Positions 34,833 to 37,427 of a DNA stretch of 57,420 bases are shown piece after piece; the stretch's first letter is position 1, and each line of letters begins with the position of its first letter. The DNA lies in assembly GCA_035629175.1 (NCBI GenBank), contig DASPIL010000080.1, positions 1-57,420 of the forward strand. The letters are read 5' to 3'. The notes below the pieces were generated by a model. That model saw nothing but the letters and a program-made list of their open reading frames with translations. It did not search any database and had not been told where the DNA came from. The position numbers and the translations under genes are program-made. The DNA is from Verrucomicrobiia bacterium. Its GTDB lineage: Bacteria; Verrucomicrobiota; Verrucomicrobiia; Limisphaerales; DASXHY01.

Positions 34833-37427
34833 ATGAATCATTGGCGTCACACTTTCATTCTCATCGCGATCTGTTTTGCGTTCCATTCGCCCGGTCAATC
34901 ATCATCAACAAACTCATCCCCGCGCGTGTATCGCGATCGTGTCGAAGCGAATTGGTTCGCCGATGCTGCGGGCAAAACCAATCGATTCTGGTATCGCGTG
35001 GCGATCGCCCGTGGTGAGCACGCGTTCGTGGTAGTCGATGCCCAGGAAGGAACCCGCGCTCCCGCCTTTGATCATGCGCGCGTCGCGCAGGAACTGGCGC
35101 GTCAAGCCGGCGCCGGGATTTCCTCGAATCAGTTGCCGATCGATGCGTTGGATTTTTTGCGCGACGGCAAAACAATGAAGTTTCGGTCGGCGGGAACGGA
35201 TTGGATCCTCAATCTTGAAACGCATGCGCTGGAACGATCTGTGGCGGCAACGTCCGAATCGAGTCTGCCCGCGTCCCGCACTCCACGGCCTTCCGTCACC
35301 ACGGGAGCCGAGACATCCATTCGCTTCGAGAACCGTCTGCCGCGCGAATTGAACTTTTTCTGGATTGATCCCGATGGCAATCGCCAGCGCTACGGCACGC
35401 TGCGTCCAGGCGAAACGCGGGAGCAGCATACGTATGCTGGCCATGTCTGGATGGCCACGGAGCAGAACGGCGACATTCTTGCAGTATTCCAGGCCGAAGC
35501 CCGACATGGGGCAGCGGTGATCGACGGGTTGGTTCCGGCCGAACCGCAGCGCAGCCGGCGGAGTGAGCGCGCGGGGCGTTTGAGTTCGTCCGGCGGACGC
35601 TCGCCTGATCAGAACTGGGAAGTGATTGTTCGCGGCCATAATCTCTTTCTTCGCGATGCGCGCAACGGCAAGGAGCGGCAACTGACACATGATGCCAATC
35701 CCGACAGTTCCTACGCGCGAAACGCCGATGCGGAACGCTCAGTGGAATTGAATTACGAATCGCGCGACCCCGAGGCGCCTATCCCGGAAATCTACTGGGC
35801 ACCCGACTCGAAACACTTTGTTGCGATGCGGTTAAAATCCGGCACGCAGCGCCGCGTTTACATTGTGGAGTCATCGCCCGAAGACCAGTTGCAGCCGAAG
35901 CTGATTTCTTATCCATACCTGAAGCCGGGCGATGAGGTTCCGATCCGCAAGCCGCATCTGTTCGATGTGGAGCAGGGACGTCGAATCGAAACCAGCGACG
36001 CCTTGTTTTCCAACCCGTGGTCGATCAGTGACGTGCGGTGGGATCGGGATTCACGGCGTTTCACGTTTGTTTACAACCAGCGCGGACACCAGGTGTTGCG
36101 GGTCGTAGCAATCAATGCGGATGACGGGAGCTCGACGAGCATTGTCGACGAGCAGAGCAAAACCTTCATCAACTATTCCGGGAAGTTCTTTTGCGAATTC
36201 ATGGAGGAGTCCAGCGAGCTTATCTGGATGTCGGAACGCGACGGTTGGAATCACCTGTATCTTTACGACGCGCGAACAGGGCGGGTGAAGAACCAGATCA
36301 CGCGCGGTGAGTGGGTGGTGCGAAGTGTGGATCGGGTTGATCGCGAGCAGCGTTGCATCTGGCTGCAGGTAAGCGGCATTCGCGCAGACGAGGATCCGTA
36401 TCACGTGCATCAGGCGCGCGTGAACTTCGATGGAACCGGGTTTGCCGTCTTGACCGAATCCGATGGAACACATTCCGTGCAGTATTCTCCGGACCGCACG
36501 TTTGCGGTCGTGACGTGGTCTCGCGTAGATCAGCCGCCGGTGACGGAGTTGCGGAGAACGCGCAATGGAAAGATCATCCTGAAGCTGGAAGAAACGGACG
36601 CATCGGAGCTGTATGCGTCAGGCTGGAAACCTCCGGAACGCTTTGTCGCCAAGGGCCGGGATGGGGTCACGGATATATTTGGCGTCATTTTCCGGCCGAA
36701 GGATTTCACTCCGTCGCGGCGATATCCGGTCGTAGAGAATATTTATGCGGGACCGCAGGACTCATTTGCGCCGAAAGCGTTTCGGACGAACTACCCGCAC
36801 CAGAAGCTCGCCGATTGCGGTTTCATTGTGGTCCAGTTGGACGGCATGGGAACGGCGAATCGTTCCAAGAAATTTCACGACATTTGTTTCAAAAATCTGG
36901 CCGACGCCGGATTTCCCGATCGGATCCTGTGGATCAAGGCGGCCGCAGCGAAATACTCCTACATGGATCTGAATCGGGTCGGGATCTATGGCACCTCGGC
37001 TGGCGGCCAGAATGCGCTGCGCGGGATGCTGGATCATGGCGACTTTTACAAGGCGTGCGTTTCGGATTCGGCGTGCCACGACAACCGGATGGACAAGATC
37101 TGGTGGAACGAGCAGTGGATGGGCTGGCCTGTCGACGAGAGTTACGTGAAGTCTTCGAATGTAGCGGACGCGCACAAGCTGCGCGGCAAACTGTTGTTGA
37201 TGACGGGTGAGCTGGATCGCAATGTCGATCCCGCCAGCACCATGCAGGTGGTGAATGCACTGGTGAAGGCGGATCGGGATTTCGAGATGCTGATCGTTCC
37301 CAACGTGGGCCATGGCGCCGCGCGATCGCCCTATGGAGGGCGCAAGCTGCAGGAGTTCTTCGTCCGCGCGTTTCATGACAAGGAGTGGAACAACGTCAGT
37401 GCCCACGTGGAAAACGGAACGAATTGA
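34833..37427 (+). CDS. Secreted DPP-IV-like peptidase with inserted VHL beta domain
   Basis: This 864-aa exported serine peptidase is paralogous to the one at 31428. After the signal peptide ([17 protein letters not shown]) come the N-terminal DPP-IV segment and an insert at about 161-221. The insert reads [36 protein letters not shown] and AGHVWMA, which match the beta domain of the eukaryotic von Hippel-Lindau protein (Asn-Arg, Pro-Arg, W-x-D-x-DG, YGTLPPG, H-Y-x-GH-W). A beta-propeller region and the C-terminal hydrolase with S722 ([10 protein letters not shown]), D795 (GELDRN) and H827 (VGHGAAR) follow. VHL beta domains bind peptides, in human VHL a hydroxyproline peptide, so it may hold proline-rich substrates such as collagen-like ones. 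That is inference. It is followed 4 bp later by the DUF885 gene. Confidence 0.92.

Follow-up and report, generated by a model that had tools for sequence, protein, structure and literature searches.

A VHL-type beta domain inserted in a bacterial S9 peptidase: a predicted hydroxyproline pocket and a possible role in peptide capture

To our knowledge, the von Hippel-Lindau (VHL) fold has hardly any known role other than reading hydroxyproline in animal oxygen sensing and serving as a drug handle for proteolysis-targeting chimeras (PROTACs). Many bacterial VHL domains are present in InterPro, and the one considered here lies inside an S9 peptidase encoded at 34833-37427 in a 57,420-nucleotide stretch of Verrucomicrobiia bacterium (assembly GCA_035629175.1, contig DASPIL010000080.1), hereafter the window. 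In human pVHL, the receptor of the CRL2 ligase for hydroxylated HIF-alpha, the hydroxyproline site is formed by Trp88, Tyr98, His110, Ser111, His115, and Trp117, with the hydroxyl contacted by Ser111 and His115, the carbonyl by Tyr98, and His110 acting through its backbone (PMC9528729). A hypothetical protein of Litorilituus sediminis that shares the bacterial VHL beta domain has been presented as a putative tumour suppressor (PMC9002001), in a paper whose main text lacks the word peptidase and uses hydroxyproline once, for HIF. Searches of the open-licence literature returned no paper that describes a VHL-peptidase fusion or that connects bacterial VHL domains with hydroxyproline catabolism. 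Breakdown of trans-4-hydroxyproline (4-Hyp) proceeds via D-hydroxyproline (D-Hyp) and pyrroline-4-hydroxy-2-carboxylate (Pyr4H2C) to alpha-ketoglutarate (PMC4364671), and the operons described for trans-4-hydroxy-L-proline encode HypE, D-HypDH, Pyr4H2C deaminase, and alpha-ketoglutarate semialdehyde (KGSA) dehydrogenase; candidates for the same set are found near the VHL-peptidase in some relatives. Compared with those operons, the VHL loci add a VHL-peptidase predicted to be exported, a Xaa-Pro aminopeptidase, and (in genome G217) a POT transporter, additions that suit peptides rather than free 4-Hyp.

The VHL beta domain of the window protein is fairly likely to be a substrate-capture module for 4-Hyp peptides. 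Its pocket probably grips hydroxyproline-containing peptides (e.g., fragments of collagen or wall proteins) for digestion, because the domain has the fold and pocket of VHL and because the gene stands among hydroxyproline-catabolism genes in some relatives. The features of the protein are as follows.

34833..37427, plus strand: peptidase of family S9 (DPP-IV fold), 864 residues, interrupted by a VHL beta domain (Pfam, model)
34833..34898, plus strand: probable Sec signal peptide (hydropathy; hydrophobic from residue 7, end approximate)
35307..35495, plus strand: VHL beta domain (Pfam match; model strands continue beyond it)
35361..35363, plus strand: Trp177, equivalent of human Trp88, predicted pocket (alignment; PMC9528729)
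35391..35393, plus strand: Tyr187, equivalent of human Tyr98, predicted pocket (alignment; PMC9528729)
35430..35432, plus strand: Thr200, equivalent of human Ser111, predicted hydrogen-bond partner of the hydroxyl, conservative change (alignment; PMC9528729)
35442..35444, plus strand: His204, equivalent of human His115, predicted hydrogen-bond partner of the hydroxyl (alignment; PMC9528729)
35448..35450, plus strand: Trp206, equivalent of human Trp117, predicted pocket (alignment; PMC9528729)
35592..36539, plus strand: beta-propeller, Pfam DPPIV_N, residues 254-569 (Pfam)
36801..37373, plus strand: catalytic domain, Pfam Peptidase_S9, residues 657-847 (Pfam, alignment)

Residues 159-220 match the Pfam VHL family (PF01847) with an E-value of 7e-11 and 42.4 bits (cut-off 21), and a search with the same profile returned 35307-35495 as the sole match in the 5.4-Mb source genome and none in 14 control genomes. 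When a 92-residue stretch was compared with the PDB by phmmer, pVHL chains were retrieved at E-values of 1e-8 to 7e-8, followed by one unrelated chain at E 1. The domain modelled alone from 55 sequences (predicted local distance difference test (pLDDT) above 90 in the core) has pVHL as its best Foldseek match (E 7e-6) and superposes on pVHL chain 6gmq_C with a VIA-align Z of 11.8, 1.5 A over 79 residues, and 33% identity. Since the strands in the models span residue 160 to about residue 230, the domain reaches approximately position 35522; a low-confidence linker (residues 236-252) follows, and then the propeller. The VHL beta domain placed at 35313-35495 in the initial annotation is therefore upheld by the Pfam score, the genome search, and the model, and the overlay with the human protein that it proposed gives a VHL-like predicted fold. 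Chance or a repeat artefact as the origin of the match is ruled out by the E-values, the single open frame, and the fold. The Pfam listing of the protein at E-values up to 1 contains no alpha domain or Elongin C-binding domain. The likeness to human pVHL thus lies in the fold and in five pocket side chains, with Thr replacing Ser111 in the bacterial domain; the differences are that pVHL is part of an E3 ligase whereas the bacterial domain is fused to a peptidase, predicted to be exported, and without a visible alpha domain or Elongin C site, and that the equivalents of human Phe91, Ile109, and Pro86 have changed.

Judged from sequence, the hydroxyproline pocket of the window protein is complete: alignment pairs the human site with Trp177, Tyr187, His199, Thr200, His204, and Trp206, so that positions 88, 98, 111, 115, and 117 are W, Y, T, H, and W. 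Residue by residue, this agrees with the earlier claim that the insert repeats the key residues of human VHL, and the pocket residues, whose absence had been considered, are present by alignment. Whole-genome searches with PF01847 were positive in 21 of 387 genomes of the window's phylum and in 56 of 392 genomes of the phylum of Planctomycetales bacterium 10988, and the 104 hits were classed on their DNA as S9 peptidases with an internal VHL domain (58), S9 fragments (2), S9 peptidases with a C-terminal VHL domain (2), HExxH metallopeptidases with a C-terminal VHL domain (10), sulfatases with a C-terminal VHL domain (12), and others (20). The complete pocket set (W88, Y98, S/T111, H115, and W117 in human numbering) is present in 56/58 of the internal S9 fusions, 2/2 of the fragments, 1/2 of the S9 proteins with C-terminal VHL, 8/10 of the metallopeptidases, 9/20 of the others, and 0/12 of the sulfatases. 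Both residues that bond the hydroxyl are kept throughout the internal S9 fusions, with Ser or Thr at 111 in 58/58 and His at 115 in 58/58. Ranked by entropy among 59 positions in these 58 proteins, positions 88, 98, 111, 115, and 117 stand at 4, 2, 6, 3, and 5 (permutation p 5e-6). These counts cover profile-search hits only and leave out 65 named loci, because the latter came from a single peptide pattern, TYAGHVW[LMV].

Several VHL-type domains depart from this pattern. In the sulfatases (12; loci including L092 (G234:C2), L120, and L121), His115 is replaced by Ala in 9 of the 12 domains and Tyr112 by Arg in 9 of the 12 (TRPGAVW), and the pocket is perhaps rewired to take a different ligand from that material. 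Loci L195, L204, L187, and L210 encode C-terminal VHL domains without an equivalent of His115 (NTYSNATW type), several of them side by side in one genome; a scan of three such proteins identified two as sialate-esterase-like (SASA) and the third as a leucine-rich repeat (LRR) protein. Other architectures include a 1637-residue protein with one clear and approximately four further VHL-like repeats (by eye) followed by a MACPF domain (L093:91-5001), a MORN-repeat protein kinase in which the VHL domain is C-terminal and has a full pocket (L215:3490-5136), and two proteins of approximately 117 residues that consist of a hydrophobic N-terminus, a full-pocket VHL domain, and little else (L230:3535-3885 and L094:4953-5303).

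The protein that carries the domain is an S9 peptidase, with propeller, hydrolase domain, and Ser-Asp-His triad, in the order export-type N-terminus, N-terminal domain, VHL domain, linker, DPPIV_N propeller, and S9 hydrolase. The triad (Ser722, Asp795, and His827) is invariant across 45 alignment rows; alignment set A5 drew on 43 of the 65 named loci, chosen by hand and for the most part complete S9 frames, together with two window proteins, and set A6 comprised 54 of the 65 and the window protein. The whole-protein model (pLDDT 87.8, predicted template modelling score 0.83) was compared with the Porphyromonas gingivalis prolyl tripeptidyl aminopeptidase (PTP) and bacterial DPP-IV, giving a Z of approximately 31 and a root-mean-square deviation of 6-8 A over 557-614 residues. 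These S9B enzymes (2ecf, 5yp4, and 2z3z) share the propeller, the alpha/beta hydrolase, and the triad with the window enzyme, which differs in its extra VHL insertion before the propeller, in the region that anchors the substrate N-terminus, and in the S1 tyrosines, which by alignment are replaced. In PTP the latter align (by alignment only) with invariant Asp754 and Trp758, part of an Asp-Lys..Trp motif kept in 56 of the 58 S9 fusions, and of the 15 alignment rows displayed, 10 lack the Glu anchor region; the window protein has another sequence there that includes Glu residues. The proposed DPP-IV cleavage after proline is accordingly not established, as the fold and triad are present but the S1 tyrosines appear replaced and the anchor region deleted or different; as speculation, an acidic S1 pocket could in its own right accommodate hydroxyproline. 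A hydrophobic N-terminus was detected by hydropathy in 45 of 56 S9-VHL proteins compared with 3 of 88 internal stretches, and the VHL-peptidase is probably exported.

A second S9 peptidase in the window provides a natural comparison.

31410..33824, plus strand: S9 paralogue without the VHL domain, 48% identical over 614 columns (Pfam, alignment)

At the insert site this paralogue has a charged linker, as the initial annotation had described, and no VHL match was found in it by Pfam or by a model built from the 104 domains. The catalytic domain was also searched in 194 Verrucomicrobiota genomes, and among the 26 matches (of which two frames broken in G053 and four remote proteins of approximately 30% identity went unclassed) eight further close members have a linker in place of the VHL domain and no VHL match to the model from all 104 domains. 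The suggestion that the domain is an optional add-on is thus supported by the paralogue and eight other members of the subfamily. On a FastTree of 69 rows (58 S9-internal, 2 S9 C-terminal, and 9 VHL-less; the 2 S9 fragments were left out), the internal VHL domain requires 3 changes, versus 10.4 for shuffled labels, and the window paralogue's neighbours comprise nine VHL-less rows, two internal-VHL rows, and both C-terminal-VHL rows. The latter (V095 and P047) represent a second, C-terminal fusion position within the same S9 subfamily. From the tree changes and these rows it follows that the domain was gained or lost more than once and joined the S9 peptidase at two positions.

Fusion to peptidases extends beyond S9. 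A second family, with the motif HEF[AGS]H and a C-terminal VHL domain, is found in L126 (Poribacteria), L125 and L085 (Verrucomicrobiota), L122 (Myxococcales), and ten Planctomycetota; Pfam places some of these proteins weakly as M90/ATLF-like, and P019, from the class of 20 others, is likewise near ATLF/M90 metallopeptidases by Pfam. In the Poribacteria, the phylum of G391, PF01847 detected a VHL domain in 40 of 84 genomes, and 38 of the 42 hits lie in frames of 400-470 residues, which by frame length resemble the metallopeptidase-VHL fusions. Sponge tissue is rich in collagen.

The genes beside VHL-peptidases provide the link to 4-Hyp. Gene labels at the loci are phmmer matches to chosen representatives, counted at or above 150 bits, and the stretches vary in length, some ending at contig ends. 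When neighbouring open reading frames (ORFs) of 167 loci and the window were clustered, the identified families included Xaa-Pro aminopeptidase (11 loci), 4-Hyp epimerase (9), a DHDPS family (8), and D-amino-acid dehydrogenase (7), with L086 and L232 belonging to one genome; the same clustering also grouped the VHL genes together with the shadow frames opposite them, sulfatases, an ABC ATPase-like family to which a window ORF belongs (6 loci), and a family without assigned identity (8 loci; representative L091:1898-3562). The top NCBIfam model for three of the epimerase genes is 4-hydroxyproline epimerase, at 376-421 bits and below the cut-offs of 442-450; the top models for other neighbours, Xaa-Pro aminopeptidase and D-amino acid dehydrogenase, are also below cut-off, and the DHDPS proteins score under the dapA cut-off, as expected of a non-DapA member. 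These candidate enzymes match steps of 4-Hyp breakdown. In G217, the DHDPS, Xaa-Pro aminopeptidase, epimerase, S9-VHL, POT transporter, and D-amino-acid dehydrogenase genes lie in this order on one strand. Related arrangements are dehydrogenase, epimerase, DHDPS, ALDH, and S9-VHL in Luteolibacter pohnpeiensis (G243, the same genome as L086), the same without ALDH in G339, and DHDPS, epimerase, S9-VHL, and dehydrogenase with ALDH on the opposite strand in L036 and L045, to which L030 adds an aminopeptidase. The G770 cluster of DHDPS, epimerase, and dehydrogenase has, 1.3 kb further on, a gene for a metallopeptidase with a C-terminal VHL domain. A conserved order of MFS transporter, Xaa-Pro aminopeptidase, and S9-VHL was observed in L034, L042, L046, and L059; three of these loci also have a downstream frame that resembles threonyl-tRNA synthetase.

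The epimerase family (PF05544) was searched in the same genome sets as VHL, and there were matches within a few kb of VHL genes on the same contig. At 4 of 97 loci (G217, G243, and G339 on S9; G388 on a sulfatase), the VHL domain has an epimerase no more than about 3 kb away, where approximately 0.06 of 97 would be expected (Poisson p 4e-7, assuming one copy per 5.5 Mb, 7.4-kb stretches, and independent loci). Within 4 kb, 12 of the 55 named S9-VHL loci have one or more genes of the pathway or for Xaa-Pro aminopeptidase, and a sought gene is near 4 of 20 Verrucomicrobiota S9-VHL loci (three with epimerase, one with aminopeptidase only). With full-length epimerase defined at E < 1e-50 (a threshold that drops 36/113 and 11/51 genomes), the two genes co-occur in Planctomycetota (23 of 56 VHL-positive genomes versus 54 of 336; p 5e-5) and in Verrucomicrobiota (7 of 21 versus 33 of 366; p 0.003).

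In the source genome itself, contig C46 carries in a row an epimerase (404 bits), DAO, Pyr_redox_2, DHDPS, ALDH, and aminopeptidase P, which are candidates by sequence similarity for the 4-Hyp pathway. The neighbours of the VHL-peptidase in the window are listed below.

33895..34662, plus strand: small protein between the two peptidases (ORF list, Pfam)
37312..39246, plus strand: DUF885 protein downstream of the VHL-peptidase (Pfam)
39338..40837, plus strand: POT/PTR2-family peptide transporter (homology; its G217 homologue follows the VHL-peptidase in the hydroxyproline cluster)

The true start of the DUF885 protein is probably further in, because the listed start overlaps the VHL-peptidase. 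With the row on C46 and the POT gene in the window, parts of the G217 arrangement are present in two places. The window also contains two very long open frames, of 2642 (8545-16473) and 1547 (50207-54850) residues.

A number of observations weigh against hydroxyproline capture. By entropy in the 58 S9 fusions, position 110 ranks only 31/59 and Phe91 ranks 59/59, P047 (S9, C-terminal VHL) lacks His115, and a profile search is itself biased toward conserved VHL positions, although sulfatase domains without the pocket set still matched. The pathway candidates of the source genome (C46) and its VHL-peptidase (C80) lie on different contigs. The sulfatase-VHL of G388, without equivalents of Tyr98 and His115, directly follows an epimerase and a dehydrogenase, and cluster membership therefore needs no intact pocket. 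The remaining 43 of the 55 named S9-VHL loci have none of the sought genes within 4 kb (some end at contig ends), and none of the 40 Planctomycetota S9-VHL loci has any in the stretch examined. Full-length epimerase is absent from 33 of the 56 VHL-positive Planctomycetota and 14 of the 21 VHL-positive Verrucomicrobiota, it is likewise lacking in 8 of 12 named VHL-positive genomes, both Poribacteria among them, and the co-occurrence p values are uncorrected for genome size and kinship. Because neither of these two Poribacteria (one metallopeptidase-VHL, one S9-VHL) has the epimerase, the link to the pathway is not universal. Lastly, 0 of 8 VHL-less S9 loci have sought genes compared with 4 of 20 VHL-positive loci, a contrast that is not significant (p 0.24); a figure of 4 of 11 VHL-positive loci was set aside as biased, since three of those four were chosen for a linkage already known.

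The scarcity of pathway genes near most S9-VHL loci would also fit a domain that is a general adhesion or spacer beta-sandwich of exported enzymes, with the pocket kept for folding and any ligand being something other than hydroxyproline. The occurrence of VHL domains on sulfatases, sialate-esterase-like and LRR proteins, a MORN-repeat kinase, and a MACPF protein agrees with such a role, as does the continued profile match of the 9/12 sulfatase fusions that have Ala for His115; however, a need in folding predicts that the sulfatase fusions keep the set, which none of the 12 does, and two unrelated peptidase families that do keep it (56/58 and 8/10) both occur beside 4-Hyp catabolic genes, making this explanation unlikely. 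It is still less probable that the pocket is a broad anchor for collagen or proline-rich peptides, one that binds proline or proline-rich stretches with or without the hydroxyl. Xaa-Pro aminopeptidase is indeed the commonest identified neighbour, and loci L034, L042, L046, L059, and L062 combine MFS, Xaa-Pro aminopeptidase, and S9-VHL with no epimerase in view, but the invariable retention of the hydroxyl-bonding residues at 111 and 115 in the S9 fusions argues otherwise, and the epimerase clusters are directed at 4-Hyp.

A third possibility is a bacterial counterpart of oxygen sensing: a prolyl hydroxylase would mark a bacterial protein, and the VHL domain would recognize the mark for proteolysis. 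Such a system could draw on two PF13640 (2-oxoglutarate oxygenase family) matches in the source genome. Both oxygenases are on other contigs, however; one matches solved PKHD-type hydroxylases weakly (E 1e-5), the other is PiuC-like with TonB-receptor-like and PepSY-like neighbours (by eye), and the fusion has an export-type N-terminus, so that this explanation is very improbable. Intracellular hydroxylase/VHL signalling as the principal explanation is rejected on account of that N-terminus and of the lack of any linked hydroxylase seen.

Capture of hydroxyproline peptides is thus retained as the best explanation. The substrate-capture idea of the initial annotation gains from the VHL fold, the pocket residues, the add-on nature of the domain, and the gene-cluster link; its post-proline DPP-IV activity is weakened. 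According to the proposed mechanism, the VHL-peptidase would be exported from the cell, and the pocket (Trp177, Tyr187, Thr200, His204, and Trp206) would enclose a single 4-Hyp residue, whose hydroxyl Thr200 and His204 would hold. A collagen-like or hydroxyproline-rich glycoprotein peptide would thereby be kept near the S9 active site and trimmed there, small peptides would be taken up through the POT transporter, Xaa-Pro aminopeptidase and other peptidases would finish the imported peptides, and the freed 4-Hyp would be burned via epimerase, D-Hyp dehydrogenase, DHDPS-type deaminase, and semialdehyde dehydrogenase. Binding of 4-Hyp, the role in capture, the polymer used in nature, and the bond that is cleaved are all inferred; candidate polymers are animal or sponge collagen and the hydroxyproline-rich glycoproteins of algae and plants. 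The generalization that intact-pocket bacterial VHL domains are extracellular hydroxyproline-reading modules, repeatedly fused to unrelated exported peptidases and feeding 4-Hyp catabolism, is tentative and rather doubtful at present.

If it is true, hydroxyproline reading by the VHL fold exists outside, and perhaps before, HIF oxygen sensing, and a nutrient-capture domain of this kind could be the ancestor of eukaryotic pVHL. The same predicted pocket in bacteria, in some cases inside a hydroxyproline-catabolism cluster, offers for bacterial VHL domains a function that can be tested and suggests a role for the fold in the turnover of collagen or wall proteins by environmental bacteria, while the bacterial domains supply soluble homologues for studies of ligands and evolution.

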